A stretch of DNA of 39,042 bases from a virus: positions 1 through 39,042 of the IMG/VR virus record IMGVR_UViG_3300047409_000156; one strand, 5' to 3'. Positions 4,675 to 31,654 of the stretch are shown here, one piece after another. A model generated the notes under the pieces. It ran no database searches and had not been told where the DNA came from. It saw nothing but the letters and a program-made list of their open reading frames with translations. Positions within the stretch are counted from its first letter, which is position 1. The number at the start of each line of letters is the position of its first letter. A program made the position numbers and the translations under genes.

Positions 4675-5132
4675 GGGGGGAGCAGCCTCGCCGCGACAAT
4701 GCACTACGCCTTAAAAAGGCGCGGTTCCTGGAGGCGTTCGCTCGTTGCGGGACAGTGACCCACGCGGCCGCCGAGGTTGGTGTTGATCGTTCAGCTCACT
4801 ATCGTTGGCTGGAGGACGTGGAATACGCCGCGCTCTTCGTCGTAGCCGAGGAACAGGCGTTCGACAACCTGGAACGCGAGGCGCGGCGCAGGGCTGTTGA
4901 GGGCACCGAGAAGCCCGTCTACCAGGGCGGCGAACTGGTCGGGACCATCCGCGAGTACAGCGACACGCTCCTGATCTTCCTCATGAAGGGTGCACGGCCG
5001 TCGAAGTACCGTGAGCGCGTGGACGTGACGCTGGACGTGAAGCGCGAGATCGAACGTCTCACCAGCGATCCGGCCGAACGTGAGGCGGCCATCGCAGAGG
5101 CGCAGCGCATCCTCTCCGCGGCGAAGACCTGA
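4671..5132 (+). CDS. Terminase small subunit-like protein
   Basis: A 153-residue protein with a GTG start in a GTGA overlap. Residues about 15-45 contain a helix-turn-helix (FARCGTVTHAAAEVGVDRSA, followed by YRWLED) of the type used by small terminases to recognise the packaging site. The rest is helical and charged (ERLTSDPAEREAAIAEAQRI). Position directly upstream of the large terminase, sharing one base, strongly supports the call. It would select phage DNA and regulate the motor. Confidence 0.82.
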   Translation: MRGEQPRRDNALRLKKARFLEAFARCGTVTHAAAEVGVDRSAHYRWLEDVEYAALFVVAEEQAFDNLEREARRRAVEGTEKPVYQGGELVGTIREYSDTLLIFLMKGARPSKYRERVDVTLDVKREIERLTSDPAEREAAIAEAQRILSAAKT

Positions 5133-6460: not shown

Positions 6461-6756
6461 AGGAACCGGTGATAATGCGGACCGTCTCAGTGACTCGCGG
6501 TGACATCGTTCGCGGCAAGCCTGGGCAACAAGATGCCTGTCCAATCGCGTTAGCCACACGGCGGCTGCTTCGCACCAAGGCAAGCATATGGGCCGAGCCT
6601 GAATACTTGGGAGGCGTCCTAATCTCCCGGTGGGATGGCCGGTCTAAGGTTCTGCGTCCAATTGGCAGGATGCCTCCAGTTGCACACCGATGGATGGAAG
6701 CCTTCGACGAAGGAACTCACGTAGATCCGATCCGCATTCCCCTCTCAATGAAATGA
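6457..6756 (+). CDS. Conserved phage protein of the CPIALA type, function unknown
   Basis: A 99-residue protein starting at ATG 6457 in an ATGA overlap. The pattern VTRGDIVRGKPGQQDACPIA, followed by a segment ending in RWMEAFDEGTHVDPIRIPLS, is that of a small soluble protein found widely in phages with no known function. Base composition is visibly less GC-rich than the flanking terminase and portal genes (for example AGCATATGGG and CTTGGGAGGC), which could indicate later acquisition. Confidence 0.65.
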   Translation: MKEPVIMRTVSVTRGDIVRGKPGQQDACPIALATRRLLRTKASIWAEPEYLGGVLISRWDGRSKVLRPIGRMPPVAHRWMEAFDEGTHVDPIRIPLSMK

Positions 6757-9431: not shown

Positions 9432-10961
9432 GTGACCACGGGGCGCTACCTGATCCGCGATGTCCTGACGCGCCAACTGGAGAAGCAACCTCCCGTCGTC
9501 AGGGGACCGCAGGGCGAGGAAGGCCCGCCCGGTCAGTCCGGTCCGCAAGGACCGCGAGGCGCGGCGGGCAAGGCCGGCATCGCCCTGGACGGTGTGACGG
9601 GGCCTGTCGGTCCCATCGGTCCCATTGGTCCGACCGGCGTCACCGGTCCGAAGGGCGACACGGGAGAAACCGGCCCGAGCGGCGCGCAGGGCTTTACCGG
9701 GCCGCCCGGTCCCGCGGGTGGTGGGCGCAAGGACGACGCGCTGAACGCGTGGGCGTTCCAGTCCGCGGCGTTCAACCTGATCGACCACGGCACGCCACTG
9801 GGAACCGTCACCACCCTGGACTTCGAGGGACCGGGCGTCACTGTCAGTCGTGTCGCGCCGGGAGCTGGAACGGCGACCATCACGGGCGGGGGAGGCGGCA
9901 GCGGGACCGCTCTCGAGGACACCATCGCGCAGACCGGCCACGTCCTCGCGGTCGGGGACATCGTCCGCTTTGACGGGGCGAACTACGTCGTGGCGCAGGC
10001 CGACTCGGCGGCGAACGCCGAGGTCGTGGGCATCGTCTCGGCAGTGGCGGACGCAGACCATTTCACGCTGACGACCTCCGGCCTCATCGACGGGCTGGCG
10101 GGCCTGACGGCGGGCGAGGTGTACTTCCTCTCCGAAGTCACGCCTGGCCTGCTGACCACCACCGAGCCGACCGGTGTGGGGGAGGTGAGCAAGCCGGTCC
10201 TCATCGCCATCTCCACGACGAGCGGCTACCTGACGAACTTCCGCGGCTCGGTCATCGCGGTGCCCATCGCCGCCTCCGACGTAACGGTAGATCCGACCGT
10301 GGCCGATGCAGCGGACGTGCAGGCGGCGCTGGAGACGCTGGCCATCACAGCCATCGTTTCGGAAACGGAGCCGAGCCCAAAGCGGTCGGGCATGATCTGG
10401 GTGCGAACGTACCCGACCAATCTGTTGAGCGCGCCCCCGCCCTATCCCGCCTATGTCTGCGACTCTCTCGGTGACTGGCTGGAGATCGGCCAGGCGCACT
10501 TTGATGGGAATGGCGTCCTTCGCAGCCTCGTCCAGACGGTGGACGACAGCGTGACGATTGCGTACTACGACGCCTCGGGAGTATTGCGCGCGTATATCCC
10601 GATCGCGACCTCGGGTATCGACCTCTGGATGTACGACGACGCCGCGAACCTGCGCACGATGCTCAACATCAACGGCGGGACACATCCGGACATCGAAGGT
10701 GTGATCCGCAACGCGAGCGGTGACACGATGGCCGCTTTCACCGTGGCTGGCGATGCTGACGGTGGTATCCAGCTTCAGATCGGTGATGGTTCGGACAACA
10801 TCCTCACCTTCAAGGACAACGGACTAAAGATCATCAGCACTGGGATCGGTTTCTTTGGCACGGCCCCGACTGGTCAGCCAATCGTTCCGCTGACTAGTCC
10901 GACTATTCAGAACGTCATTGATGCGCTCACGTCAATCGGCCTTGTTCTGCAGAGTGACTGA
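9432..10961 (+). CDS. Collagen-like tail fibre 1
   Basis: A 509-residue protein from GTG 9432. Residues about 24-98 are a collagen-like run of Gly-X-Y triplets ([19 protein letters not shown] and similar). A beta-rich middle part follows ([20 protein letters not shown], then a long segment to about residue 275) of the kind found in phage fibres, and the last 170 residues form another beta-rich region. The collagen part should trimerise into a rod that carries receptor-binding domains. It is unusual that this gene follows the portal instead of the other tail genes. Confidence 0.82.
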
Positions 10962-11003: not shown

Positions 11004-12977
11004 ATGAGCACGTCCGCCTTCGAGGCTGCGCAGGGCTCGCCAGGACCGACCGGCGCGACCGGGCCTGATGGTTCGACCGGCCCAGCAGGCTCGACGGGTA
11101 GCGCAGGCGCGACAGGCTCTACGGGGACGGCCGGCGCAACGGGCAGCGCAGGTTCGACTGGTCCTGCTGGTGCTACGGGTTCGGCAGGCGCAACTGGCAG
11201 CGTCGGCGCAACGGGCGCAGGTGGAACAACCGGCAGCACCGGAACGCAGGGCGCGCAAGGTCTGACCGGCACCGTAGGAGTCACTGGTCAGCAAGGGCAG
11301 ACAGGCTCTACGGGCACCCAAGGCGTTCAAGGACTCACAGGCACGGTCGGAGACACGGGCACGCAGGGCACGCAGGGCATCCAGGGGATCACGGGTGCAA
11401 CGGGTACTCAGGGTATCCAGGGGATCACGGGATCAACCGGGATAGCTGGGGCTACGGGCGTTGCCGGCGTCACGGGCAGCGTCGGCGCGACCGGAACTGC
11501 GGGCACGAATGGCATCACCGGCCCGACCGGCGTCGTCGGTGTAACGGGAGCCACCGGCCCGCAAGGTATCCAGGGCCTGACGGGAGTGGCGGGGGTTACC
11601 GGTTCAGTCGGCCTGACAGGATCAGGACTCACGGGCGTGACGGGGGTCACGGGCCTGACCGGCGCAGGGATCACCGGTGTCACGGGTGTTCAGGGCCTCA
11701 CCGGAGCGCAGGCGCAGACAGGCAATACCGGCGTGGCGGGTGTGACCGGGAATACGGGCGTCATCGGAGTAACGGGCGCAACCGGCCTCACGGGCGCGGG
11801 CGTTACCGGAGTCACTGGCGCAACCGGCCCCACCCCGACCTTCGTCATCCCCGCGATCACCTTCTCCGGCGTTGCGCAGACCGGCACGGCAGGCACGGCG
11901 ATCAACTCGGATGCAGCGATTGCAGCGTTCACCGGCACGGCACCCGTGGCCCAGAACTACGGATCCGCCTCCTCGACAGGCACATCGCTCTTCGCCGCCC
12001 GCAGCGACCATCTGCACGGTGAGACAGGACCGAAGCTTGAGATCTTCACCGTCACCACCGGGGTCTGGACCAAGACTGCCGGGGCGAAGCGCATATTCGT
12101 CCAGGTCTGGGGCGGCGGTGGAGGTGGAGGCGGGGGAACAGGAGCGGCGGCCGTCGCGGGTGGCGGGGGCGGTGGAGGTGGGGGTTACGCCGAAGCGTGG
12201 TTCGACCCGGCCGACGTCACCGGCGTGACCGGCGTCACCGTGGGAGTCGCGACCACGGGCGCGGCGCAGGGCGTGAACGGCGCATCTGGCAACTTCTCCG
12301 CGTTCGGTGCCTACCTGCAAGCATTCGGCGGTGGGGGCGGACAGGCCGGCGCAGCGGCCACTGGATCGGGTGGCGGTGGCGGTGGAGGGATGTGGGCCGG
12401 TGGCGCGAACGGCTCCGCTGCTGCCGGTGGGGCCGGTGGCGGGCCCGGAGGTGGTGCTGCGAACTCCACAGCGCAGGGGCCACAAGGTGGCGGTGGTGGA
12501 CAGACGCGTACGACGAACATGGGCGTTGCGTCCGGGATCGGCTACAACAACTGGGGCGGTGGAGGCGGTGGTGGGGGAACCTCCACGGGTGTCGCAGGCA
12601 CTGGCGGTTCCGGTACGACCTCCATCTACGGGGGTGGCGGTGGCGGGGCAGGAGGAGGCCGCACCACTGCCGTCGCAGGCTTCGCTGGCGGGCCGGGTGG
12701 CCTCGCGGGCGGGGCAGTGACAGCAGTGAACCAGACGGACGGTGCGGGCGGTACAGCAGGACTCTCAGGCGTTGCGGGCAGCCGCACCGGCTCGTGGGGC
12801 GGCGGTGGAGGTGGAGGAGGGGGTGGCACCGGCGCGGCTTCTGCCATTGCTGGTTCAGGTGCTCCCGGCGGCGCTCCTGGTGGGGGTGGCGGTGGAGGCG
12901 GCGGCGGCTCCGGCGCGCAGGGGGGCGGTGGCGGCGCAGGAGCGCGCGGCGAGGTCCGGGTGACGACGTGGGGCTGA
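11004..12977 (+). CDS. Collagen-like fibre 2 with polyglycine adhesin domain
   Basis: A 657-residue protein from ATG 11004, with a CGGAGA ribosome binding site. Residues about 12-275 are collagen-like and unusually rich in Gly-X-Thr triplets (for example [19 protein letters not shown]), with a few four-residue interruptions after residue 200. Then comes a motif common in phage fibres ([14 protein letters not shown], about residue 330), a strand segment ending in [10 protein letters not shown], and about 290 residues of glycine-rich repeats. The last part resembles polyglycine receptor-binding tips of tailed phages. It probably binds the host surface as a trimer. Thr in Gly-X-Thr triplets is the known glycosylation site in bacterial collagen-like proteins such as BclA. 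Confidence 0.85.
11040..11840 (+). repeat. Degenerate 9-bp repeats coding Gly-X-Thr/Ala triplets
   Basis: The DNA is built of short GGC-NNN-ACG/GCG units that encode the collagen-like rod of fibre 2. Several longer units recur nearly exactly, for example the one coding GIQGITG at about 11375-11395 and 11408-11430. Such repeats allow slippage or recombination to change rod length. Confidence 0.8.
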
Positions 12978-13107: not shown

Positions 13108-14265
13108 ATGACGCTGCACGTACTTGGCTTGCCGTGGACGGAGACGACGCGAGAGTGGGAGGCCGAAGCCTTCACCGCGCGCACGCGCGTCCTCGCCACG
13201 ATGATGAGCATGTACGGGAAGGTCGCTCTCTACGGCGGCGAGCGCAACGAGGCCGTGGTGACCGAGTACGTCCCCATCGTCGACCGCGCATGGCAGCAGC
13301 GCCACTTCCCCGGCCTGACCTCCGCGACGACGTTCAGCGACTATGACCCGTCACGTCCTCACTGGATAGAGTTCAACGTGCGCGCAGCGGACGCCATCCG
13401 CAAACGGGCGAAGCGCGGCGATCTTCTGGGCATCACGATGGGCGTCAGTCACCAGCTCACAGCGACCCTGCTCGCAGACCTGGAACTCGTCCCGGTCGAA
13501 GTCGGGATCGGCTACAAGGGCGTCTGGGCACCGTTCAGGGTGTTCGAGTCGTGGGCGTGGCGTTACTTCCACTCGGGCTACGCAGATGGCATCGCGACGG
13601 GGCAGGGTCAGGAGGGCGCTGATCTGCTCTCGGACGTGCGCAACTTCGATGAGACGATCCCCAGGGCCTACGAAGTGGCGGACTTCCCAGAGGGCCAAGG
13701 AGACGGTGGGTACTTCCTCTATCTCGGCCGCGTGGTTGCGCGCAAGGGCCCGCACATCGCCGCGGACGTATGCAGAAGGATCGGCGCGAAGCTCATCGTG
13801 GCGGGCCAGGGCGTGGCGTCGGACGAACTGGGGCGCATCACCGCGACGGACGGGACGATCCTCGAGGGCGACGTGGAGTACGTCGGAGTGGTGGGAGTGG
13901 AGGAACGCGCCAGGCTGATGGGCGGTGCCATCGCCACGTTCTGCCCGACGCTATATTTGGAGCCCGGAGGGGGCGTAGGGATCGAGTCGCTTCTAACGGG
14001 CACGCCCATCCTGTCCGCCGAGTGGGGCTGTTTCCGGGAGTACATCGTCCCCGGAGTCAACGGCTATACCTGTCCGACGCTCGCGGATTTCATGAACGGA
14101 GCGAAGTCAGCCGGTTCCCTGAACCGCTACGCCATCCGTCAAAATGCCATCGGACGTTATGGCACTGATGCGATCGGGCCTCAGTTCGACAGGTATTTTC
14201 GGCGTCTCAGAACTCTCCGTCGCGAGGGATGGTATGAAACGCCTCCGATGCGGCTTGTCGCATAG
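13108..14265 (+). CDS. GT-B glycosyltransferase (GT4-like)
   Basis: A 385-residue protein. The C-terminal half has the GT-B pattern: GYFLYLGRVVARKGPHIAAD (about 201-220, the nucleotide-binding start of the second Rossmann domain), IVAGQG (about 230-235) and EPGGGVGIESLLTGTPILSA (about 285-304), the equivalent of the E-x7-E sugar-nucleotide signature. The N-terminal half is less typical but begins with a short strand and glycine. It should transfer a sugar from a nucleotide donor, but acceptor and donor are unknown. It directly follows the collagen-like fibres, and its 3' end overlaps the HNH gene on the opposite strand by 59 bases. Confidence 0.82.
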   Translation: MTLHVLGLPWTETTREWEAEAFTARTRVLATMMSMYGKVALYGGERNEAVVTEYVPIVDRAWQQRHFPGLTSATTFSDYDPSRPHWIEFNVRAADAIRKRAKRGDLLGITMGVSHQLTATLLADLELVPVEVGIGYKGVWAPFRVFESWAWRYFHSGYADGIATGQGQEGADLLSDVRNFDETIPRAYEVADFPEGQGDGGYFLYLGRVVARKGPHIAADVCRRIGAKLIVAGQGVASDELGRITATDGTILEGDVEYVGVVGVEERARLMGGAIATFCPTLYLEPGGGVGIESLLTGTPILSAEWGCFREYIVPGVNGYTCPTLADFMNGAKSAGSLNRYAIRQNAIGRYGTDAIGPQFDRYFRRLRTLRREGWYETPPMRLVA

Positions 14266-14635
14266 CCCGCTTGTGGTCCCTATCACGCATGTTGTCCTGA
14301 TGAGTGCCGAGCCACAGGTGCCGGACATTGACGCAGCCGCGGTTGTCGCAGGTGTGCAGGACATGCAGGCCATCTGGAATGGGCCCGTTGGCGAGTTGCC
14401 AGGCGACTCGGTGGGCATGGACCATGCGCCCGTCTATGTTGATCTTCCCGTACCCCTTGCCATCACCAGAGCCGGTCCATTGCCAGCACTCATCGTCCCC
14501 GCCGCGTCTCGTCTTGGAGGCCATGCGCTTCGGGAGCGGAATGTAGTGGGCTGCCTTGACTCCGACCCGGACGGCCTGACGCCTGCCGATCTCCGCTCGC
14601 ACAGCTTCACTGCGTACGTACACGCCCTTTGGCAT
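14207..14635 (-). CDS. HNH endonuclease (homing type), antisense in the glycan cassette
   Basis: A 142-residue protein read on the minus strand, starting at ATG 14635; an upstream in-frame ATG at 14662 would add nine residues. It has the HNH_3 pattern: CWQWTG, GYGKI, AHRVAW, then LHTCDNRGCVNVRHLWLGTH and QDN. The His and Asn residues of this segment bind metal and cut DNA. Free-standing HNH genes of this type spread between phages by homing. It is one of only three minus-strand genes, lies between two glycan genes and overlaps the 3' end of one of them, as expected for an inserted selfish gene. Confidence 0.88.
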   Translation of the reverse strand: MPKGVYVRSEAVRAEIGRRQAVRVGVKAAHYIPLPKRMASKTRRGGDDECWQWTGSGDGKGYGKINIDGRMVHAHRVAWQLANGPIPDGLHVLHTCDNRGCVNVRHLWLGTHQDNMRDRDHKRAMRQAASEAFHTIPRDGEF

Positions 14636-14641
14636 ACGTGT

Positions 14642-14670
14642 ACTGTACGACAGATGGCGCATTCTGTGAG
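14642..14670 (-). promoter_or_regulatory. Possible promoter of the HNH gene
   Basis: On the minus strand CTCACA (14670-14665) is followed after 17 bp by TACAGT (14647-14642). Each matches the sigma70 consensus at four of six bases. The -10 ends six bases before the ATG at 14635, so the transcript would be leaderless, as proposed for the repressor-like gene at 32604. The match is weak. Confidence 0.3.
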
Positions 14671-14679
14671 AGGACTGAC

Positions 14680-15603
14680 ATGACCAAGGCCATCATCTCC
14701 ATCGCCGCGCGCATGGCCTCGACGCGCCTGCCGGGCAAGGTCATGGCCGAGGTCGGCGGGAAGCCCATCCTCCAGCATCTCGTGGAACGCCTCTCGCGCT
14801 CGCGGGCCGAGGTGGTCATCGCGAACAACGGGGGTGATCCAGAGATCCTCGATCTTGCCGACCGGCTTGGCGTGTACTGCTTCCATGCCGATCTCGATGT
14901 CATGGATATCCATCGGCTCGCTGCTGTATGGAGTCACGCCGACTTCATCCTGCTCGCCGGGGCCGACGATCCCTTCCTCGATCCTGCCCTCTTCGATCTT
15001 GTCCTGGACCGCCTGGAGCGCGGCGACGTGCAGTACGTCAAGACGCAGGGCTGGCCGCTGGGCATGAACGTCTGGGGCTGGACGCGCGCCGCGATGGAGG
15101 ACGGCCACCGCCTCGCCACGGCACCCGACGAGCGCCAGCACGTCGTGCCGTTCTGGGAGCGCCGTCCGCTGACCTACCCCGCCGCCGTGATCCGGCGAGA
15201 CGGACCGGATCTATACGATCATTACCGGCTCACGGTGGATAACCCATCTGATCTGACGTTGACGCAGTACCTCTACGGCGTCATCGGGGCCACCAGTATC
15301 GAAGCGGAGAGAGTGATCCGCTATCTTGCTCTCCATCCTTCAGTGGTCGCCATCAACGTCGATGGTCTGCGCGGCACCGCTGCCCGCGATGCGATCTACG
15401 ACGTGACGCCCGTGGAGAACGTCATGGAAGGGCTGACGCGTCACCCTCTGAGTAAGCATTTGGACGAAATCCGCGAGCACATCGCAGTCGAACGCCGCGC
15501 CGCTCTCGCAGCAATCCCCGAGCAGGGCGGCTTCGCAGAGGGCCGCGCGGCTGCCCTGCTATCCGTTGAACAGTGGCTCAGGTACAGGGAAGCGGCGCGA
15601 TGA
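14680..15603 (+). CDS. Cytidylyltransferase-like protein, SpsF/CMP-sugar synthetase type (first copy)
   Basis: A 307-residue protein from ATG 14680, with GAGAGGA as ribosome binding site. The N-terminus has the nucleotidyltransferase signature RMASTRLPGK (11-20) followed by GGKPILQHLVERL, and an acidic metal site GADDPFLDP (about 94-102). The later VDNPSDLTLTQYL (about 186-198) is also typical of SpsF and CMP-KDO synthetases. These enzymes couple CTP to acidic sugars such as KDO or nonulosonic acids. A second copy lies at 19724, and both share the segment QGWPLGMN/RGWPIGLN. The gene is followed without a gap by a DUF115/GT42-like gene. Confidence 0.8.
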   Translation: MTKAIISIAARMASTRLPGKVMAEVGGKPILQHLVERLSRSRAEVVIANNGGDPEILDLADRLGVYCFHADLDVMDIHRLAAVWSHADFILLAGADDPFLDPALFDLVLDRLERGDVQYVKTQGWPLGMNVWGWTRAAMEDGHRLATAPDERQHVVPFWERRPLTYPAAVIRRDGPDLYDHYRLTVDNPSDLTLTQYLYGVIGATSIEAERVIRYLALHPSVVAINVDGLRGTAARDAIYDVTPVENVMEGLTRHPLSKHLDEIREHIAVERRAALAAIPEQGGFAEGRAAALLSVEQWLRYREAAR

Positions 15604-16406
15604 GAGCGTTGCCCGACGCGGCTATCGATGGTCAATCGATTGCGCCTGAGCGCGTTCGCGTTGTCGGGCCGCTCCGATCAGCAACTGCCGATCCACCTCC
15701 GGTGACTAGCCGGATTGCGGGCAGTATCGCGCACTTCCGTGGCGCGCTGCAAGGTCGGACCGTTATCGTCCTCGGAGCGGGCGGGCTGGACTACCTTCGA
15801 CCTCGGGCGCTGGAAGCCCTGCCTGTCATCAGCGTGAACAGCTCCGCGCGGAAGTGGGGCCTGACGCCGCAGTACGTCGTAGTCAAGGAGCACACGGAAG
15901 AGGCGATCCCCAACGCAGGAGCCTTCCCCGGCGTGCCGATCATCTGCTCCGCCGGTCCCTACGGCAACCCGGATCGTCCCACACCGCCGGACATTGCGGA
16001 CCTGTTCATCTACGACCACCTGCCGAACAAGGCTGCCGACTTCGATGCGGTCCGCGACTGGCCCACGGAACCGGACCAGCTCGTCGTCTCAATGTCCACG
16101 ATGACCACTGCCATGCACTTCGCCTGCTACGCCGGGGCGAAGGTCATCCTCGTGGTGGGGCTGGTCTGCGGGCTCCTCGAGGGACGTACCCACTTCGCGG
16201 GCTACGGCCACCCTGCCGACCCGGACGGCGAGCAGCCTGCGTGGATGGCGGACTGGCTGGCGAGGACCGAACGCCAGGCGCTCGGCGTGAAGCGCGAACT
16301 CCAGCGCAGATACGACGTGGACATCCTCGGCCTTTTCCCCTGGATCAGCCCCGAACTCGACGGGCTGAGTTATCGCAGCCCGACGAATACGATCAACGAG
16401 TGGTGA
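15600..16406 (+). CDS. DUF115/GT42-like sugar transferase candidate (first copy)
   Basis: A 268-residue protein in an ATGA overlap with the cytidylyltransferase. After a 50-residue leader it has a Rossmann-type start (TVIVLGAGGLDYLRP, residues 54-68), then a strand giving VISVNSSARKWGLTPQYVVV. This resembles the DUF115/Maf group and GT42 sialyltransferases, which use CMP-sugars. Later parts (LVVSMSTMTTAMHFACYAGA, then VILVVGLVCG) fit the same fold. Pairing with a CMP-sugar synthetase supports the call. The active-site residues of GT42 are not identified with certainty, so a different Rossmann enzyme remains possible. Confidence 0.55.
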   Translation: MRALPDAAIDGQSIAPERVRVVGPLRSATADPPPVTSRIAGSIAHFRGALQGRTVIVLGAGGLDYLRPRALEALPVISVNSSARKWGLTPQYVVVKEHTEEAIPNAGAFPGVPIICSAGPYGNPDRPTPPDIADLFIYDHLPNKAADFDAVRDWPTEPDQLVVSMSTMTTAMHFACYAGAKVILVVGLVCGLLEGRTHFAGYGHPADPDGEQPAWMADWLARTERQALGVKRELQRRYDVDILGLFPWISPELDGLSYRSPTNTINEW

Positions 16407-16459
16407 AGTGACCCTTCCAGCGTGGCGTACTCTCCGCAACATGAAAGCGAGCGTCTGAA

Positions 16460-17539
16460 ATGCTCAACGCCATGAAGGCCGAGTGGACCGCGGCCTACAT
16501 CAACGACCTCCCGGACCGCTCGTTCGCGTACGTCGAGGCGGGTGGCACGAAGGATGCGGGAGGGAAGACAACCCCTCGCTCGTTGCGCCACTTCCCGATC
16601 CGTGACGCCAACGGCAAGCCCGACGCGGCGCACGTCCGCAATGCGCTCTCCCGTCTCCCGCAGAGCGAGTTCGAGGCCAAGGCGCGCGGCAAGGTGGAAG
16701 CAGCTGCCAAGGAACTCGGCATCGGTGAGCCGGCGCAGAAGTCCACCTTCGAGGCGAAGGCAGAGCCGATGTCGGGTCGACGACTGGACCGCTGGCTGAT
16801 GGGCGACATTCCGCGCCGCGTCCTGGTCGTGCCGTTCACAGGGCCCCTCCCCGGCGGCAAGGCGGGCCTGGACCTCGACGGCGAGTACTTCGACGCGGAG
16901 ACGGATCTGTACGGCCCATTCCCCGCCCTCCACCTTTCCCGCGAGCGGATGGTGGACTGGCACCACGATGACTTTGGCGTGAACGACCCGAAGGCATCGC
17001 GGATGAAGGGCACGCTACTCGGCCGTATCGTCCTCGACGAAGACCCGGAGGACGATGGGTACTGGGCCGACTGGTGGGCGAAGGCCGGCGAGCGAAGGCT
17101 GGCCCTCATCAAGAGTTTGGAAGAACGGTCAGTCCCGCTGTTCGGCTCGTCGCAGGCGGCGTTCAAGCAGAAGGCCGACGACGGGCGCATCGAAGTCTGG
17201 CCGTTGATCCGCCACACCATCACCACCTCCCCGCAGAACACCCACGCGGTCGTCCCGAGCCTCAAGGCGTACCTGGACGACCCCGACATTCCCTTCGACG
17301 AAGTGGGCCTCTCCGCTCTGAGAGCGGCGCTGGTCGGACTGGACATGGCAGGCGCGAGCTTGCAGGGCAGCTTCACGGACGCCGGTTCCGGCTTGCGTCC
17401 GCGCGGTCGCTCTGCCGGTAAGGCCGGACGCGTCCTCTCTGCGGCGAACGAGGCCGAGCTTCGGCGGGCATTGGAGGCGCTGGGAACGGTGCTTTCCAAG
17501 CTCGACCGCGCAGACATCCTCGAGGAGCTGGCGAGCTAG
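16460..17539 (+). CDS. Prohead protease with N-terminal DUF6582-like domain
   Basis: A 359-residue protein from ATG 16460. Residues 8-90 (YINDLPDRSFAYVEAGG, then PRSLRHFPIRDANGKPDAA) form a domain often found at the start of actinophage head proteins. The protease part has candidate catalytic His168/His169 (VDWHHDD), Ser230/Ser231 (LFGSSQAAF) and the sequence IEVWPLIRHTITTSPQNT, which is typical of the herpes/HK97 maturation protease fold. It would trim the scaffold region of the capsid protein encoded next. It sits between the two glycan cassettes. Confidence 0.8.
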   Translation: MLNAMKAEWTAAYINDLPDRSFAYVEAGGTKDAGGKTTPRSLRHFPIRDANGKPDAAHVRNALSRLPQSEFEAKARGKVEAAAKELGIGEPAQKSTFEAKAEPMSGRRLDRWLMGDIPRRVLVVPFTGPLPGGKAGLDLDGEYFDAETDLYGPFPALHLSRERMVDWHHDDFGVNDPKASRMKGTLLGRIVLDEDPEDDGYWADWWAKAGERRLALIKSLEERSVPLFGSSQAAFKQKADDGRIEVWPLIRHTITTSPQNTHAVVPSLKAYLDDPDIPFDEVGLSALRAALVGLDMAGASLQGSFTDAGSGLRPRGRSAGKAGRVLSAANEAELRRALEALGTVLSKLDRADILEELAS

Positions 17540-17591
17540 CCCCTCACCGTCCGGCCGGAGCGCGGGTGACGGTCGGGTCACGGCAACCCTT

Positions 17592-17603
17592 ACTCGCAGG
17601 GAG
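17592..17603 (+). promoter_or_regulatory. Shared 12-base leader ACTCGCAGGGAG of the capsid gene
   Basis: The sequence ACTCGCAGGGAG precedes the capsid GTG by five bases and is repeated exactly before the tail tube gene (25488-25499). GGGAG is a strong ribosome binding site. The preceding 50 bases hold a weak inverted repeat (ACCGTC 17546-17551, GACGGT 17568-17573) without a T tract. Confidence 0.6.
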
Positions 17604-17608
17604 CACCA

Positions 17609-19048
17609 GTGTCAGAGACAGACTTCACCGAGAAGATGGGCGAACTCACCGGAGCGATCCGGGAGCTCGTCGGTCGGATCGACGAGACACGCAGCAAGGC
17701 GAGCGCCGAGGACAGTGGCCGGGTGGTCGCTGCCGAGGCGGGGATCGCAGAGAAGACGGCCGAGATCCTTGCAGCGAAGGAGCAGCAGGCGGCCGAGGAG
17801 AAGAAGCGCATCGACGAGGCGGTGAAGGCGGCGCTGGCCGACCTCCGCGTGCCGTCGAAGGCAGGGCTGATCGGGCAGGGCCAGGCCGCCGATCCGGTCA
17901 ACCGCATGATCGCAGGCGGCAACGGCGGCACACCGCACCCCGCCCTCAAGGCCAGCATCCGCGACTACCAGGCGGGCGAGCTGCTGACCGCCCTGCTGGA
18001 CATCCACGCCATCGAGACCGGCGGCATCGACTTCGAGGCCGTGCAGCGTGGCAAGGCCAAGCTGGCGGACCTCGGCGCGCTCTGGTGGGGCATGCCGGAA
18101 GCCTCGAAGGCAACGCTCGGCGCGACGGGCGCAACAGGCGGGTACGTCCTGCCGAACAACCTCGTCGACACGCTGGTGAAGCCTGAGACACAGGCGGCCG
18201 TCTACCAGCTCCTCGTCACGGTCCGCACGGGCGTCAACGTCCGCGGCGTGGACCAGCCGTACCGCACCGGGGCTCCGGCCCGGATGGTGTTCCAGGACTG
18301 GGGCACGACCAAGGAGAACGTGAACGAGGCATATGGCTCGTACACGGCCACCCTCGGCACGCTGGCTCGCATCTACGACATCGGCAAGCAGTACGCCCGC
18401 TTCTCGGCAGGCGCGGCGGAAGCCGACGTGATCGACGAGCTCGGCAAGGCCGCCATCCTCGGTGAGAACTACTACATGCTCGCGGGCGCAGGCACCGGCT
18501 CCGTCGGGACCGGCGATCCGACCGTGGGCATCTACACCGCCCTCGCCAACGGCTTCGGTGGCGCGTACACCACGACCGGCGTCCCGGTCGCGGGCACCAT
18601 CGCAGGCTCCGCGGCGGCGCAACTCCTGACCGCCTTCGGCGCGCTTGCTTCTCGCTCGCGCACCCCGTCCGCGGTGGTCATGGACGCGGCCACGTACTAC
18701 AGCCTGTTCGCGCAGGGCTCGGACACGGCCGGGTTCTTCATGTCCGAACTGCTCGGCGCGGGCTTCCAGGTCGGCGGCGACTTCTCGCTGCGCTTCCGGG
18801 GCATCCCGATCTACTACGACGCCAACTTCAACACGAACACCTCAACGACCAAGCGCGCCATCGCGGCCGACTGGAAGGTGTTCAAGTTGTACCGCGGCAT
18901 GGAGTTCCGCATCGACACCAGCGACGTCGCAGGAGACCGCTGGGACAAGAACCTCATCGGCTTCCGCGGTGAGGAAGAGATCGGCTGGAACGCCTACACG
19001 GGTTGCGCGGTCGGAGCCGCACAGCTCATCACCGGCGTCATCCCCTGA
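17609..19048 (+). CDS. Major capsid protein (HK97 fold) with N-terminal scaffold domain
   Basis: A 479-residue protein from GTG 17609. Residues about 1-75 are a charged coiled coil (RELVGRIDETRSKASAED and AAKEQQAAEEKKRIDEAV), matching the delta/scaffold domain that the protease removes. The rest follows the phage capsid pattern: ATGATGGYVLPNNLVDTLVK before the first structural strand, a spine helix region around EADVIDELGKAAILGENYYM, and the C-terminal segments RSRTPSAVVMDAATYYSLFA and FRGIPIYYDANF. It forms the icosahedral shell. It is the expected most abundant virion protein and sits between the two glycan cassettes. Confidence 0.92.
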   Translation: MSETDFTEKMGELTGAIRELVGRIDETRSKASAEDSGRVVAAEAGIAEKTAEILAAKEQQAAEEKKRIDEAVKAALADLRVPSKAGLIGQGQAADPVNRMIAGGNGGTPHPALKASIRDYQAGELLTALLDIHAIETGGIDFEAVQRGKAKLADLGALWWGMPEASKATLGATGATGGYVLPNNLVDTLVKPETQAAVYQLLVTVRTGVNVRGVDQPYRTGAPARMVFQDWGTTKENVNEAYGSYTATLGTLARIYDIGKQYARFSAGAAEADVIDELGKAAILGENYYMLAGAGTGSVGTGDPTVGIYTALANGFGGAYTTTGVPVAGTIAGSAAAQLLTAFGALASRSRTPSAVVMDAATYYSLFAQGSDTAGFFMSELLGAGFQVGGDFSLRFRGIPIYYDANFNTNTSTTKRAIAADWKVFKLYRGMEFRIDTSDVAGDRWDKNLIGFRGEEEIGWNAYTGCAVGAAQLITGVIP

Positions 19049-19052
19049 TCGC

Positions 19053-19727
19053 ATGACAGTCTCTGCCGCCCTGCTGGTCCTCGACCCTCCCGTCGACCGC
19101 CTGGCTGCACTGGTCGAATACCTCCGGCCGGTGGTCAGTCAGTACGTGGTCGTGGTCGATGACCGCACGGCGGTAGAGACTGCCGAGACGATGGCGAAGT
19201 GGCCCGACGTGACGCTCGTCCCCTTTCGATGGGTGGACGACTTCTCGGCGGGCCGCAACGCCGCACTCCCCCACGTCACGGGCGACTGGATCCTGCACGT
19301 CGACCCGGACGAACTGCCCTCCCACGCCATGCTCGACTTCATCCGTTCCGTGGACGCGGTGCAGCAGCAGGACGTGATCTGGCAGGACGCCCTGTATCCC
19401 GCCCCGCTGGGCTATCTCTTCTTCACCCGCAACTGGTACGGCGGAAGGCGCGGCGAGGAATGGGAGGAGCACTGGCACTGCCGGCTCTTCCGCAACCATC
19501 CCGCCAGTCGCTGGTACAAGCCCCTCCACGAACAGGTGATGCTGCATGGACGCGCGGAGAGCGATACCCGCGGGACGCCGTTCCTCCCGAAAGCTCCCCT
19601 GGGCGCATATCTCATCCACTCCAAGCCCGCCGAGCGCATCGGCGTCGACGATGCCGTCTACAACCGCATCGAGGCAGCCGACCTCACCAAACGAGAGACC
19701 GCCTACACCATCGCAGGAGAGCAATGA
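19053..19727 (+). CDS. GT-A glycosyltransferase, family 2 type
   Basis: A 224-residue protein. It has the GT2 pattern: strand SAALLVLDPPVDRLA, then VVVVDDRTAVETAE, the signature DDFSAGRNAAL (62-72) and the metal-binding acidic motif DPDE (84-87) in ILHVDPDELP. Later residues EEHWHCRLFRNHPASRWYKP fit the acceptor side of small GT2 enzymes related to SunS-type transferases. It should transfer sugar from a nucleotide donor with a divalent metal. It begins four bases after the capsid stop and is followed by the second cytidylyltransferase gene. Confidence 0.85.
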   Translation: MTVSAALLVLDPPVDRLAALVEYLRPVVSQYVVVVDDRTAVETAETMAKWPDVTLVPFRWVDDFSAGRNAALPHVTGDWILHVDPDELPSHAMLDFIRSVDAVQQQDVIWQDALYPAPLGYLFFTRNWYGGRRGEEWEEHWHCRLFRNHPASRWYKPLHEQVMLHGRAESDTRGTPFLPKAPLGAYLIHSKPAERIGVDDAVYNRIEAADLTKRETAYTIAGEQ

Positions 19728-20458
19728 CGACGGCACTGCTCATCACGGCACGCATGACCAGCGAGCGGCTGCCGGGTAAGCCGGTCATGGACATCTGCGG
19801 CCAGCAGGCGCTGGCGCTGATGCTGCGCCGCCTCAAAGGCTCGGCAGACTACATCGTCGTCTGCGCACCGGACGACGGGACGAGCGAACCCATCGAGCAC
19901 GCCATCCCTCCCGGCACTGCCACCCTGTTCCTCGGTCACCCGACAGACCTGTTGGCCCGGTTGGCGGGCGCTGCGAAGTACGTGCGGGCGACCGAGGTCG
20001 TGATGACTGGGGCTGACTGTCCGTTGACGGAACCGGGCGTAGTGCGCGTTGCGCTGAAGGCCGTTGCCGCTACTCTCCACGCGAACGTGCAGACGCGCGG
20101 CTGGCCTATTGGTCTCAACGTCCAGGCCGTCACGACATGGCCGCTCTACGAGGCAGACGCGGAGGCTGTCGATCCCGACGAGCGCATCTACTACAACGCC
20201 TTCTTCGACCGCCGGCCGGATCGCTTCCCGCTGGTCACCGTGACTCGTCCAGGTGCCGACGAGTACGCACATCGCGTCACGCTGGACACTGCTGCAGACC
20301 TTGCGCTCATCCGCCAGATCGTCGGAGAACTGGGACCGGGCTGCACGGGGGAGGAGATCATCGCGTGGTTGCACGCGAACCCCGACGCCGACCGCACGAC
20401 ACGGGGCGGGTACAACTACCACCCCGACACGAGCACGCTCATGGCCGTCCCGGCATGA
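19724..20458 (+). CDS. Cytidylyltransferase-like protein, SpsF/CMP-sugar synthetase type (second copy)
   Basis: A 244-residue protein in an ATGA overlap. It has RMTSERLPGK (10-19), the metal site TGADCPLTEP (95-104) and VTLDTAADLALIRQI near the end. It shares the internal pattern RGWPIGLNVQ and FFDRRPDRFPLVTV with the 14680 gene (WERRPLTYPAAVI there), so the two are paralogues. It is about 60 residues shorter, mainly at the C-terminus. The expected reaction is CTP plus an acidic sugar giving a CMP-sugar. A DUF115/GT42-like gene follows immediately, as with the first copy. Confidence 0.8.
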   Translation: MTTALLITARMTSERLPGKPVMDICGQQALALMLRRLKGSADYIVVCAPDDGTSEPIEHAIPPGTATLFLGHPTDLLARLAGAAKYVRATEVVMTGADCPLTEPGVVRVALKAVAATLHANVQTRGWPIGLNVQAVTTWPLYEADAEAVDPDERIYYNAFFDRRPDRFPLVTVTRPGADEYAHRVTLDTAADLALIRQIVGELGPGCTGEEIIAWLHANPDADRTTRGGYNYHPDTSTLMAVPA

Positions 20459-21009
20459 CGACGACCATCGTGGGCCGCGGACCGTCGCTGCTCTCGCTGA
20501 CCCGCGAGGACTTCCCGGCTGGCCCGGTCATCACGCTGAACGCAGCGATCATCTACGTCCGGGAACTGGGTCTCGGGAACGCGCTCTTCTCCATGCAGAA
20601 GGACGGCTGCATCCCGCACGACCATCACGGCAAGCCTGACGTGCAGGCGTGTGGGAACTGCCCGACCTGGCCGATGGTCGCTCCGCATCAGCCGGAGACG
20701 CTGATCGTCACAAGTGCGGAAAGCCCGTTCTGCCTCGCGGACTACTCGCCGCGCATCGTGGTCGATGTTGAGCAGGACTTCGGTCTGCCGTGGCACACGA
20801 TGAGCGCGCCGGTGGCGGTGAGGATCGCGCACAGTTGGGGCGAGACGGATCTGCTCATGCTCGGGCACGACGCCTACGTCAAGGGGAATACGGAACGCTG
20901 GGAGCCGGGAGTGGGATTGGTCGACGATCCGCATGGCGGCTACTTCCTGGCGGGCAAGCTGGCGAACGAGATCGCGGTGGAGCTGGGGATGACGATCACA
21001 TGGCGCTGA
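20455..21009 (+). CDS. DUF115/GT42-like sugar transferase candidate (second copy)
   Basis: A 184-residue protein. It opens with VGRGPSLLSL (6-15), the Gly-x-Gly-Pro-Ser motif typical of GT42 sialyltransferases and DUF115/Maf proteins. Then come VITLNAAIIYVRELGLGN and ALFSMQKDG. The His/Cys-rich segment HDHHGK...CGNC (about 55-75) may bind metal. The end (ETDLLMLGHDAYVKGNTERW) keeps the same fold. It is shorter than the first copy and lacks its N-terminal leader. CMP-sugar use is inferred from the neighbouring synthetase gene. Confidence 0.55.
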   Translation: MTTTIVGRGPSLLSLTREDFPAGPVITLNAAIIYVRELGLGNALFSMQKDGCIPHDHHGKPDVQACGNCPTWPMVAPHQPETLIVTSAESPFCLADYSPRIVVDVEQDFGLPWHTMSAPVAVRIAHSWGETDLLMLGHDAYVKGNTERWEPGVGLVDDPHGGYFLAGKLANEIAVELGMTITWR

Positions 21010-21641
21010 TCGCAGCCGTCATCGCAACCCGCTTCGAGCCGCCGCAGTTGACGCCGCTCCTGGAGACGCTGCGCGCCGATGGCGTCCTGCCCGTGGTCGT
21101 CCACGACACCGGCACCCACGCCCCGGACTGGTCCCTCTACCGACTCTGGAACGACGGTGTACGACAGGCCATCGAGCGCGGCGCGGAGTACGTCTGCGTG
21201 ATGAATGACGACGTGACGATCTTGCCGGGGACGCTCAATCTCATGGCTGGGTGGCTCGAGGAAGTGGCCGAATACGGCGTCCTATATCCCGACTGCAAAC
21301 GCGCTACTTCCGAGAGGTTTGGGCATTTCCGCGCCATGATCACGCAGGGGACATGGGGCGCGGGAGCGATGACCGGCTTCTGCTTCATGTTCCGCGCCGA
21401 CCTCGACGTTCCCTTCGACGAGAAGTACCAGCTCTGGTACGGCGACGATGACTTCGAGGAGCGGGTACGGGCGAAGGGCCTGCTCGTGGCGAGGATCGAT
21501 GGCCTGCCGATCGACCACGCCGCGATGGGTTCCACGTCGCTCGTTGACCACGAGACGGTGATGGCGTGGATTGAGAACGACCGCCGTCGCTGGGAGACGC
21601 GAACCTACTACACCGTCCAGACGGAAGCGGTGACCGCGTGA
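21000..21641 (+). CDS. GT-A glycosyltransferase (GT2-like)
   Basis: A 213-residue protein from ATG 21000, overlapping the upstream gene by ten bases. It shows NDDV (69-72), the metal and nucleotide-sugar site following the helix NDGVRQAIERGAEYVCVM, then GAMTGFCFMFRADLDVPFDE and GDDDFEERVRAKG (about 148-160), which correspond to the acceptor loop and ED motif of GT2 enzymes. It probably adds one sugar residue to a glycan or protein. No signal or membrane segment is seen, so it acts in the cytoplasm. Confidence 0.82.
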   Translation: MALIAAVIATRFEPPQLTPLLETLRADGVLPVVVHDTGTHAPDWSLYRLWNDGVRQAIERGAEYVCVMNDDVTILPGTLNLMAGWLEEVAEYGVLYPDCKRATSERFGHFRAMITQGTWGAGAMTGFCFMFRADLDVPFDEKYQLWYGDDDFEERVRAKGLLVARIDGLPIDHAAMGSTSLVDHETVMAWIENDRRRWETRTYYTVQTEAVTA

Positions 21642-22957
21642 CCCGCGTCCTGTTCCTGGGTGATGTCGCGCAGACAGGGTTCGGCACGGTCACGCTCTCA
21701 TTGGGCCGCGAGCTCCTGGCGCTGGGCCTCGACCTTCGCTTCTGCTCGCTCAACGAACCGACGCCGGGATCGGGCTGGTGGAGTGATCTGCCGGAGGAGA
21801 TCAGATCACGAACCGCCAGTCTCGAGGCCGAGGATGGGTGGCTGGCCTTCGGTGAACCGGAGACGGCCGAACGGCTCGCCGCGATGTTCAGTGGCGGGTT
21901 GTTCGCGGACGGCTGGACACCGGACGCGGCAATCATCCTCGGAGATCCCGGCAGCCTTGAGGCGTCCCCGGTCCTCGACATCATCCCGGACGGCCTGCCG
22001 GTCCTGCACTACGTCCCCATCGAGGGCATCGGCTCCCCGCCGGCATGGCGGGCGCTCTGGCAGAAGGCGCAACCTGTCCCCACTTCTCGCTTCGGCGCGA
22101 TGGAGCTCGAACGCCTGTTGGGCCGTCCCGTGCCGTACGTCTACCACGGCGTGGACACGCAGACCTACCACCGGCCTTCCCGCGAACACCCGATCGTCCT
22201 GCACGACCGGACGAACGGCAGGGACTTCCGCGTGCTTCGCAGCCAGCGCGAGTGCAAGGAGTTCTTCGGCCTCGATCCTGCGCGTTTCCTGATCCTGCGC
22301 ACGGACCGCCTGATGCCGCGTAAGCGCTATCCGTCCCTGCTGCGTTCGCTGGCCGTGGTGATGGCGCAGCGCGACGAGGTGGACTTCCTCTGGCACTGCC
22401 GCTCCGTGGACCAGGGCGGCAACCTGTTCACCTTCCGCTCGCAGTTCCCGCTCGATGTGGCGCGAAGAATGCAACCCACCGGCTACCACGACCAGGGCCT
22501 CGGCGCGCCGGCCGAGATGATGGCGGCGCTCTACGCTGCCGCTGACATCTACGTCTCCACGTCGGCGGAAGGGTTCGGCCTGACCATCGCGGAGGCGATG
22601 GCGTGCGGCACGCCAGTCGTTGCGATGGACTACAGCTCCGTGCCCGAAGTGCTGGGAGCCGATCCCCTGCCCATCTCCACGTCCTTCACCGCGCACACCA
22701 TCCGCCAGGCTCCCGGCGGTCTGCTCGTTCCCCCTGCCTACCTCGACGACAACATCTACGGCTACTGGTGGGCGGCGGTGAACGAACGCCTCTTCGCCTC
22801 GGCCGTGATGGGTGTCGTGATGCTGCGCAGGCAGGAGCGGCAGAACATCGGCGCACGCGGGGCGATCCACGTCGGCGCTGCGTTCCGGTGGAGCAGGGCG
22901 GCGGAGCAGTTCCGCGATCTCATCATGGCGGCACTACCCCAGGAGGTCGCGGCGTGA
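21638..22957 (+). CDS. GT-B glycosyltransferase, family 4 type
   Basis: A 439-residue protein from GTG 21638. The N-terminal domain begins RVLFLGDVAQTGFGTVTLSL, with the Gly-x-Gly donor loop common in GT4. The C-terminal domain has ILRTDRLMPRKRYPSLLRSL, then ADIYVSTSAEGFGLTIAEAM and ACGTPVVAMDYSSVPEVL (about 302-340). These are the classical E-x7-E signature. It completes the second glycan cassette, and its stop overlaps the head-tail connector gene. Donor and acceptor are unknown. Confidence 0.9.
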   Translation: MTRVLFLGDVAQTGFGTVTLSLGRELLALGLDLRFCSLNEPTPGSGWWSDLPEEIRSRTASLEAEDGWLAFGEPETAERLAAMFSGGLFADGWTPDAAIILGDPGSLEASPVLDIIPDGLPVLHYVPIEGIGSPPAWRALWQKAQPVPTSRFGAMELERLLGRPVPYVYHGVDTQTYHRPSREHPIVLHDRTNGRDFRVLRSQRECKEFFGLDPARFLILRTDRLMPRKRYPSLLRSLAVVMAQRDEVDFLWHCRSVDQGGNLFTFRSQFPLDVARRMQPTGYHDQGLGAPAEMMAALYAAADIYVSTSAEGFGLTIAEAMACGTPVVAMDYSSVPEVLGADPLPISTSFTAHTIRQAPGGLLVPPAYLDDNIYGYWWAAVNERLFASAVMGVVMLRRQERQNIGARGAIHVGAAFRWSRAAEQFRDLIMAALPQEVAA

Positions 22958-23667
22958 CGCTCACAGTCTCGGTCGATGCCGTGCGCGAGTACCTGTCCCT
23001 GAACACGACACCCTCGACCTCGCAGTACACCGACGCCACCATCTCGTCGAATATCCTCGCCGCCCAGAGCCGGTTGGAGCAGGTGACCGGGCGCTTTTTC
23101 GTGGATCAGACTTTCGATACCGTGCCCTACCGGCAGACGACCATGTTGCGGGCACAGATCCCCATTCCCGGCTTCCGCACGTTCACGCAGGTGAGCTGGG
23201 GCGGGACCATCCTGACGGTCGATGTGAACGATCCCAGCGCAGCGTCCGTCTGGGCGGTCCCCGATGCGATGCAGACCGGCCTCTATACCGGGTTGCAGTT
23301 CCGCGCGTTCCGCGCCGACGCGCAGGGGCTGCCGTGGTGGATCGCAGACCGGAACTGGTTCGACAAGGCGCTCGACTCGCCGTTCTATCCCGGCAACTAC
23401 GGCGGCGGGTACTTCTATTCGTCCATGCCGAACGACCTGCTCATCACCGGGGACGCGGGGTACGCGCAGGGCAGCGAGCCGTACGACTGGCTGCACGCGG
23501 TCAAGGTGCTCGCGAGCTTCTACACGATGCGCCCCGCGTCGATCCTGGCAGACGTTGCGATCACGCCGGCCGGTGGGATCTTGAACTATTCCCAGATGCC
23601 TCCCGAAGTGAGGGAATTTATTGCGGCGTGGAAGGGCGGGGCCATGATGGTCTCAGTGGGGGGGTAG
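22954..23667 (+). CDS. Head-tail connector (adaptor) protein
   Basis: A 237-residue protein from GTG 22954. The N-terminal 50 residues (VDAVREYLSLNTTPSTSQYT, then ILAAQSRLEQVTGRFF) have the helical pattern of phage gp6/gp15-like connector proteins that sit under the portal. The middle is beta-rich, and the C-terminus has LHAVKVLASFYTMRP. Position between the capsid region and the tail completion gene supports the call. It would close the portal after packaging. Confidence 0.75.
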   Translation: MTLTVSVDAVREYLSLNTTPSTSQYTDATISSNILAAQSRLEQVTGRFFVDQTFDTVPYRQTTMLRAQIPIPGFRTFTQVSWGGTILTVDVNDPSAASVWAVPDAMQTGLYTGLQFRAFRADAQGLPWWIADRNWFDKALDSPFYPGNYGGGYFYSSMPNDLLITGDAGYAQGSEPYDWLHAVKVLASFYTMRPASILADVAITPAGGILNYSQMPPEVREFIAAWKGGAMMVSVGG

Positions 23668-31111: not shown

Positions 31112-31641
31112 GCGGCGAGACCGGCACGTTCAAGATGTACGTGGGCGCGGGTAACTCCGCGACGTGGCGGGGCCTCTCACTCAGTCAGACCACCGCCCAG
31201 TCCGTTCTCGCGGGGGCGAGTGACGCGATTGCGTGGGACGTGGTGTTTGCGGAGACGGACGGCATCAGGTCAACGGGGACGCATGGTCCCTACGGCTCGG
31301 GGATCACCGTGCCAGTTGGGGCCGCGGGCGTGGTTCCGAGTGGCATGGCCGGCCTCTGGCGGGTCGGCGGCAACATGGACGTGTACCCAGCGGCCAGCGG
31401 CGGTGTCGTCGCTGCCTTCGGGATCATCGTCAACGACTTCTCTCCCTTCTGGGAAGATGACCTCTCGGCCTTCGACTTCGGCATTCCAGGCGACTTCAAC
31501 CTCACCATCTCGCCCATCGTCTACCCACTCTCCGAAGGCGATGTGGTCTGGTGCAACTTCCTGAACAATCTCGACGGCAGCGCCAACGTCGGCGGAACCG
31601 ACTCGACCTTCCTCATGGAATATCTCGGCCCCGTGCCGTGA
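31108..31641 (+). CDS. Small beta-sandwich tail protein, C1q/TNF-like appearance
   Basis: A 177-residue protein in an ATGA overlap. It is rich in Gly, Ser, Val and Asp, with alternating strands (GLWRVGGNMDVYPAASGGVV, then FGIIVNDFSPFW) resembling the trimeric jelly-roll heads seen in phage baseplate and receptor-binding proteins. It lies between the hub and a collagen-like fibre. It may be an upper baseplate or receptor-binding component. The family is not certain. Confidence 0.55.
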   Translation: MSGETGTFKMYVGAGNSATWRGLSLSQTTAQSVLAGASDAIAWDVVFAETDGIRSTGTHGPYGSGITVPVGAAGVVPSGMAGLWRVGGNMDVYPAASGGVVAAFGIIVNDFSPFWEDDLSAFDFGIPGDFNLTISPIVYPLSEGDVVWCNFLNNLDGSANVGGTDSTFLMEYLGPVP

Positions 31642-31654
31642 ACAGGAGCACCCG

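Follow-up and report, generated by a model that had tools for sequence, protein, structure and literature searches.

A phage record with two putative virion-glycosylation islands that couple CMP-sugar synthetase-like genes to genes of DUF115/GT42-like fold

Virus record IMGVR_UViG_3300047409_000156 (39,042 bases; the whole record was analysed and is called the window here, with open reading frames running off its ends) carries two islands of glycosyltransferase-type genes among its structural genes, island A at 13108–16406 and island B at 19053–22957. Each island contains an SpsF/CMP-sugar synthetase-like gene that overlaps a gene whose product is modelled with a DUF115/Maf-GT42 fold. We consider it somewhat better than an even bet that both islands serve virion glycosylation and are expressed together with the structural genes, A acting on a collagen-like fibre and B on the capsid or a neck protein. 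The computed results are gene families, folds, gene overlaps, slot conservation and a partial association with collagen-like genes; from these we infer all catalytic steps, the sugar, the acceptors, co-expression and any benefit (shielding, stability or adsorption).

Two islands surround the protease and capsid genes

Proteins were annotated with Pfam (hmmscan; 30 window proteins, a part of the open reading frames) and PHROG profile searches. Genes are named by their start coordinate, other loci by our L numbers, and values in brackets are E values unless another measure is given. From the portal gene (7150) to the adaptor gene (22954), the order is 9432, 11004, 13108, an HNH gene on the minus strand, 14680, 15600, 16460, 17609, 19053, 19724, 20455, 21000 and 21638:

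9432–10961, plus strand: collagen-like tail/fibre protein (Pfam Collagen 4.9e-6, slightly below the cut-off; PHROG tail fibre)
11004–12977, plus strand: fibre protein, collagen-like, Thr-rich and Gly-rich, candidate acceptor for island A (Pfam Collagen 5.4e-22)
13108–14265, plus strand: island A, GT-B glycosyltransferase (Glycos_transf_1 7.2e-11; phrog_3408 glycosyltransferase 4.7e-46)
14207–14662, minus strand: HNH endonuclease, probably a mobile insertion (HNH_3 8.1e-16; phrog_1872 5.8e-35)
14680–15603, plus strand: island A, SpsF/CMP-sugar synthetase-like (CTP_transf_3 2.1e-15)
15600–16406, plus strand: island A, DUF115/Maf-GT42-like fold, possible CMP-sugar transferase (fold comparison; model pLDDT 58)
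16460–17539, plus strand: prohead protease, between the islands (weak phrog_3017 0.61; matching stretch before the capsid gene in L020–L025)
17609–19048, plus strand: major capsid protein (PF05065, Phage_capsid, 4.6e-12; phrog_10 6.7e-22)
19053–19727, plus strand: island B, conserved first gene, GT-A (PF00535, Glycos_transf_2, 5.9e-7; orthologues in L021–L024)
19724–20458, plus strand: island B, second SpsF/CMP-sugar synthetase-like (CTP_transf_3 1.9e-7; PDB 6oew 6e-12)
20455–21009, plus strand: island B, second DUF115/Maf-GT42-like protein (fold comparison; HHalign to bacterial DUF115)
21000–21641, plus strand: island B, GT-A-like (weak PF00535 0.055, below the cut-off; orthologue in L024, 47%)
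21638–22957, plus strand: island B, conserved last gene, GT-B (Glyco_trans_1_4 4.7e-13; orthologues in L020, L022, L023 and L024)
22954–23667, plus strand: head–tail adaptor (phrog_442 2e-7; 4-bp overlap with the end of island B)

The eight island genes open where the first-pass annotation, made from the sequence, had placed their starts, and they lie in place around the protease and capsid genes. Its remark that each synthetase gene is followed without a gap is borne out, both pairs (14680/15600 and 19724/20455) overlapping by 4 bp; neighbouring genes from 19053 to 22957 share 4 to 10 bp, and this chain of overlaps runs on into the adaptor gene. Its two GT-B and two GT-A glycosyltransferases are recovered by Pfam for 13108, 19053 and 21638, with an EX7E motif in both GT-B proteins, and 21000 gives only the weak match listed. 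The bracketing that it described is firm for the capsid gene; for the protease it depends on the weak PHROG match and on the place before the capsid gene in six relatives. By hydropathy there is no clear membrane-type protein among the eight predicted products: seven are free of any 19-residue mean above 1.47, and 15600 has a single stretch at 2.13, which its model sets over a core helix (167–177) and strand (182–186). Antisense open reading frames over 19038–20422, favoured by a crude codon-position gene caller, were rejected for the plus strand because 19053 has orthologues in four relatives and 19724 matches Pfam.

The synthetase-like proteins belong to a CTP-using sugar-activating family

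Proteins 14680 and 19724 both exceed the curated CTP_transf_3 cut-off of 22.6 bits (57.6 and 31.5 bits) and begin with an ARMxSxRLPGK-type stretch, which in 14680 aligns with PDB entries 6oew and 1vh3. A profile of 14680 built with its copy from viral locus L003 finds the cytidylyltransferase 6oew at 2.7e-25 and then KdsB chains; 6oew is likewise the closest solved relative of 19724 by sequence, KdsB chains again coming next. These matches support the synthetase-family assignment proposed for both genes. Since members of the SpsF/CMP-sugar synthetase family charge ulosonic acids with CTP, a nonulosonic acid is one candidate sugar and Kdo another. The two synthetase–transferase pairs had been described as duplicated, which is apt in the sense of a deep divergence: the synthetases are 32% identical, and the DUF115-like proteins give no BLAST match to one another (HHalign probability 13%). 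In a 38-row SpsF tree (L005, which resembles L004, and L017, which resembles L016, were left out) both window genes group with L003 (99/94), 19724 on a very long branch.

The follow-on proteins are modelled with a DUF115/Maf-GT42 fold

The proteins that follow the synthetases are small (15600, 268 aa; 20455, 184 aa; 632 residues in the Maf chain of 5mu5), and neither attains the roughly 600 residues of Maf flagellin transferases. Sequence searches gave little: 15600 has sub-threshold matches to MptE-like PF01973 (0.22; 11.7 bits against a cut-off of 34.6) and to phrog_4603, 'alpha-2,3-sialyltransferase' (0.06), and 20455 has no match in the Pfam or PHROG searches, PF01973 included. The GT42 family PF06002 (CST-I) was not listed for either protein by hmmscan up to E 1, and its profile had no match in any genome scanned, control genomes included. 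A PDB sequence search returned no relative of either.

Structure comparison is more informative. AlphaFold yields a fair model of 20455 (pLDDT 73, from six sequences), for which VIA-align places Maf 5mu5 (Z 11.8, rmsd 4.2 over 164 residues) level with MptE (Z 11.2), followed by SteA (10.3), thiamine pyrophosphokinase (10.2) and CstII (8.4). The fold group of Maf, MptE, SteA, thiamine pyrophosphokinase, GT42 and GT29 spans Z 11.8 to 6.6, and other folds start from 5.9. For 15600 the order is MptE (Z 12.4), Maf (11.3), SteA (10.8) and CstII (9.6), the group spanning 12.4 to 6.2 and other folds starting from 4.4, on a low-confidence model; Foldseek retrieves MptE 8sd5 (5.6e-5) and CstII (1.2e-4). 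A profile of the 20455 family aligns with bacterial DUF115 proteins over 150 columns (HHalign 87%, 4e-6); the DUF115 alignment (A8) comprised 8 of 14 loci. On these models both follow-on proteins have the DUF115/Maf-GT42 fold, a group that includes kinases as well as transferases, and 15600 is a possible CMP-sugar transferase. Given that kinases share the fold and that the 15600 model is of low confidence, we can only infer sugar transfer by these two proteins. The DUF115/GT42-like identity given to them earlier thus stands at the level of fold for both, with the MptE kinase tying or leading among the matches and the family profile cut-off lying beyond reach.

Nine viral structure models show this fold at E up to 0.001; six belong to uncultured Caudovirales phages. 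Genes of the 20455 type lie between the protease and capsid genes in L006 (with a DUF707-matching neighbour) and L007. In L009 and L010 such a gene comes immediately behind that for the capsid, and in L011 it has a similar neighbour and an aminotransferase-like gene (neighbours named by eye). Among genome contigs the 20455 profile found no relative, and the 15600 profile matched 0 of 301 Chloroflexota genomes in a scan that had no positive control.

Island B occupies a variable slot between the capsid and adaptor genes

A scan with the capsid gene returned six relatives (L020–L025; capsids 49–67% identical), the last of which ends at the capsid gene. Orthologues of 19053 lie downstream of the capsid gene in four of the five with sequence beyond it (L021–L024, 63–70%), a minus-strand open reading frame intervening in L021 and L024; they are somewhat more conserved than the capsid. 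At the other end, orthologues of 21638 precede the adaptor gene in all four loci that reach it (L020, L022, L023 and L024; 40–49%). In the middle of the slot, L022 carries genes for an Asn synthase, a GDSL enzyme and a hexapeptide protein; L020 has a methyltransferase and genes that no Pfam family matches, L021 a methyltransferase, and L024 an orthologue of 21000 (47%). Neither an SpsF nor a DUF115-like match was found at E 1e-3 in the six capsid-relative loci fetched. As read from these alignments, island B is a variable slot in which the end glycosyltransferases are mostly kept and the middle genes differ among capsid relatives. Searching 50,697 phage records by tblastn with 19053 and 21638 gave no match.

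HNH-like genes were also noticed by eye in or beside islands elsewhere (L021, 10382–10906 and 11580–12023; L023, 16996–17469; all on the minus strand), as if glyco-island slots attracted mobile endonucleases.

Island A may act on the adjoining collagen-like fibre

The triplet 13108–14680–15600 was found again only in L003 (GT-B 57%, SpsF 49%, DUF115-like 76%), where a similar Gly-rich fibre C terminus lies upstream of it (by eye). In the window, the gene for GXT-rich collagen-like protein 11004, with Thr at Y in 42 of its 95 GXY triplets, adjoins glycosyltransferase gene 13108, as in the SgtA/BclA-type arrangement. Protein 9432 has 24 GXY triplets in runs of five or more, six of them with Thr at Y. 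The six capsid-relative loci contain no island A match and no GXY run of eight or more.

The neighbourhoods of 13108 relatives were surveyed in 80 viral loci, kept from 228 confirmed ones. Redundant entries are L001 and L002 (pieces of the window), L008 and L027 (repeats of L003) and L018/L019 (repeats of L004/L005); the collagen control consisted of 16 loci, with L001–L003, L005, L008, L012, L017–L019 and L026 not used. Same-strand GXY runs occur near 13108 relatives in 23/80 viral loci against 0/16 control loci, and 16 of those 23 have the run within 1.5 kb; among loci with 3 kb on both sides the figure is 13/47. Only the L003 copy among the 80 matched the window SpsF and DUF115-like proteins, and L033 weakly matched the L004 SpsF. 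Because many rows are kin and 57 loci lack runs, these counts describe an association of 13108-type GT-B genes with collagen-like genes, not a rule. In cyanophage S-CAM7 two GXT-rich collagen-like proteins come directly before a 13108 relative, and after it come a hypothetical protein and then a 2OG-Fe(II) oxygenase, a row that is possibly a collagen hydroxylation and glycosylation set. The row of this Synechococcus phage occupies L012 7078–14574, and its hypothetical protein looks glycosyltransferase-like by eye; L061 likewise has an oxygenase-like gene (by eye) together with GT-B and collagen-like genes.

Since L003 shares both island A and a similar fibre end, and some 13108 relatives occur near collagen-like genes, the island A acceptor may be the fibre. 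The capsid was dropped as its leading acceptor on one case: L003 has island A and the similar fibre end, and its capsid gives no BLAST match to that of the window. The earlier description of the islands as bracketing the capsid genes is therefore correct as to position and may mislead as to what island A would modify. In L003 the protease and capsid appear fused in a 667-aa open reading frame at 4702–6705 (capsid phrog_2263 1.1e-48; protease by eye). Elsewhere in the window, a third collagen-like repeat protein (31655–32563) has Thr at Y in 16 of 24 GXY triplets, and a tRNA-Arg(acg) is predicted at 31580–31673 on the minus strand, opposite to the structural genes.

NeuB-bearing viral loci hint at a nonulosonic acid

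Eight other viral loci were found with the SpsF profile, seven of which carry NeuB, in about five lineages; the NeuB/SpsF loci also hold terminase, portal or capsid genes. A DUF115-like gene (weak PF01973 0.081; GxGPS motif) follows that for the capsid, at a distance of up to about 1.1 kb, in L004/L005 and L016/L017. NeuB in these SpsF-bearing loci is a hint, from gene content, of nonulosonic acid. Neither the window nor L003 gave a NeuB match, which is not proof of its lack in the window, because open reading frames run off the ends of a record whose completeness is not given. L016 2214–3170 was rejected as a NeuB gene, being an oxidoreductase; tblastn puts NeuB-like sequence at 674–1339. L014 (8472–15958) has Polysacc_synt_2 (PseB-like), DegT, NeuB (all Pfam) and SpsF (profile) genes before its terminase gene, and GNAT-like, HisF-like and PseA-like genes by eye; this looks like a near-complete nonulosonic acid pathway in a phage.

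A Chloroflexi metagenome-assembled genome (MAG) has a contig with a capsid relative (54%) beside mnmA-like and integrase-like genes (named by eye), and the same genome has NeuB and SpsF about 3 kb apart. Across 201 Chloroflexota genomes, DUF115 and SpsF occur together in 16, DUF115 only in 3 and SpsF only in 9, so that SpsF is present in 16/19 genomes with DUF115 against 25/201 overall (Fisher 9e-15, uncorrected for kinship; the count assumes that G001–G201 denote the same genomes in both scans). A Chloroflexota-type host is possible, and a nonulosonic acid supplied by the host is plausible from these gene sets.

Occurrence in other phages

Both SpsF and both DUF115-like proteins of the window, and the DUF115-like and SpsF proteins of L004, had no tblastn match in the 50,697 phage records, of which three matched the L013 NeuB and one the L015 SpsF. 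Searches of openly licensed PMC papers turned up no report of a phage CMP-sugar synthetase and DUF115/Maf-like pair acting on virions. The first-pass annotation knew of no described phage system with such a pair, and that agrees with both searches; as for the same genes in other phages, the records gave none, and island A recurs in L003.

Proposed function and rival explanations

The soluble glycosyltransferases (GT-B 13108; GT-A 19053, GT-A-like 21000 and GT-B 21638) would work in the host cytoplasm, each island's set assembling a short glycan on a structural protein. An acidic ulosonic sugar made by the host, in all likelihood a nonulosonic acid, would be charged with CTP by the SpsF-like enzyme and then added by the DUF115/GT42-like one. 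Island A would most likely decorate Thr of the collagen-like fibre encoded directly upstream, and island B, a modular slot, most likely the capsid or a neck protein, its differing middles giving related phages different surface glycans. A system that activates an acidic sugar and attaches it to virion proteins had been suggested at the outset; gene families, folds and coupling to structural genes favour it, and the sugar, its transfer and the virion modification keep the conditional form given here.

Several results weigh against this proposal. The 15600 model is weak (pLDDT 58, from two sequences), and its profile meets bacterial DUF115 proteins at the N terminus only, with 3% probability. 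Foldseek puts a kinase (MptE, HPPK) first for both follow-on proteins, for 20455 at just 5.3e-3 with nothing in the PDB at E up to 0.001, and in VIA-align Maf and MptE tie for 20455, with thiamine pyrophosphokinases up to Z 10.2. Kdo or another CMP-sugar suits the synthetase matches equally well. Island A is common to only one other phage, L003, whose capsid shares a weak PHROG match (phrog_617) with that of the window. Of the GT-B loci, 57/80 have no collagen-like run, including L003, where the fibre gene is cut by the contig end; many rows of that survey are near kin and the control set is small. Bacterial collagens have Thr at Y in 31.6% of cases overall, and most are unglycosylated according to passages of PMC8968730; because of this a Thr-rich fibre is weak evidence. 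The Chloroflexi host link rests on a metagenome bin.

These enzymes might instead alter the surface of the host, for serotype conversion or superinfection exclusion, their late-operon position being incidental. Passages of PMC12619734 and PMC10202952 state such a role for phage glycosyltransferases, and PMC12053666 and PMC6586298 report phage-encoded enzymes altering nonulosonic acids of the Acinetobacter capsule. The Acinetobacter reports, the commonness of Thr at Y and the Maf–MptE tie led us to lower our confidence in virion glycosylation and to raise that in host-surface remodelling, which we still rate as unlikely: hydropathy picks out no clear membrane-type protein, the genes overlap into the adaptor gene, and similar genes elsewhere lie beside fibre, protease or capsid genes. 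A slimmer chance goes to the DUF115-like proteins being small-molecule pyrophosphokinases or binding proteins, in islands that make another product. The Foldseek ranking, in which thiamine pyrophosphokinases follow MptE for 20455, speaks for this; against it count the Maf scores, the co-occurrence of DUF115 with SpsF in Chloroflexota and the gene overlap with a CMP-sugar synthetase, seen in each of the two separate islands. Modification of phage DNA, another role stated for phage glycosyltransferases in passages of PMC12619734, is very improbable here, as no modified-base synthesis gene appears among the 30 window proteins scanned by Pfam and the genes sit among structural genes. DNA and host-surface modification accordingly rank below virion glycosylation.

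More tentatively, and with the balance of doubt against it, the islands could be exchangeable 'serotype loci' for phage particles, in which the end genes stay fixed and the middles are swapped. Some would include genes for CMP activation of a nonulosonic acid and for compact transferases of Maf/GT42 type; one set would serve collagen-like fibres and another the head. The coats of related virions would in that case be different and in part sialic-acid-like.

If the main proposal holds, phages can coat their particles with sialic-acid-like sugars by means of a small transferase family that recurs, with no role assigned, among structure models of viral proteins. CMP-sugar synthetases that stand as orphans in phage genomes would then be virion genes rather than metabolic cargo. 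Minimal enzymes of Maf/GT42 type would become available for study, along with a modular locus in which the role of phage glycans (in shielding, stability, adsorption or immune recognition) could be probed.

Comparison with known systems

Phage virion glycosylation is already known; the phage records and literature searched showed no synthetase–transferase cassette placed in a slot of this kind. Mycobacteriophages have glycosylated capsids and tail tubes (Freeman et al. 2023, via PMC11256854 and PMC12619734), for which phage glycosyltransferases are held responsible, as we propose here; the passages concerned name no CMP-sugar synthetase or DUF115/GT42-like enzyme, and in the related phage Maravista the glycosyltransferase genes lie near the 3' end of the genome (PMC11256854), whereas those of the window lie among structural genes. 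Cyanophage S-SZBM1 also encodes a cytidylyltransferase, found in its virion proteome, although passages of PMC9146016 discuss it as a glycerol-3-phosphate type whose role is uncertain, and it is set beside the window by description only. The NeuB/SpsF viral loci (L004/L005 and L013–L017) are alike in having SpsF near packaging or head genes, and in L004/L005 and L016/L017 the capsid gene is followed by a DUF115-like one; they carry NeuB, for which the window gave no match.

Maf transferases, which attach nonulosonic acids to flagellin (passages of PMC13317340), share the logic of a synthetase and a DUF115-fold transferase (Z 11.8 and 11.3), but the window proteins are less than half the length of the Maf chain, there is no flagellin, and no nonulosonic acid synthesis gene was found in the window. 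The GT42 sialyltransferase CstII is similar in fold (Z 9.6 for 15600, 8.4 for 20455), with 10–16% identity over the aligned part and no Pfam CST-I match listed. For the fibre, the tested precedent is SgtA of C. difficile, which adds GlcNAc to Thr of collagen-like BclA3 and whose gene lies directly upstream of that for BclA3 (passages of PMC7157674). Both systems set a glycosyltransferase gene beside one for a Thr-rich collagen-like surface protein; SgtA is a GT-A enzyme with TPR, whereas the window joins a GT-B enzyme to an acidic-sugar pair, in a phage.

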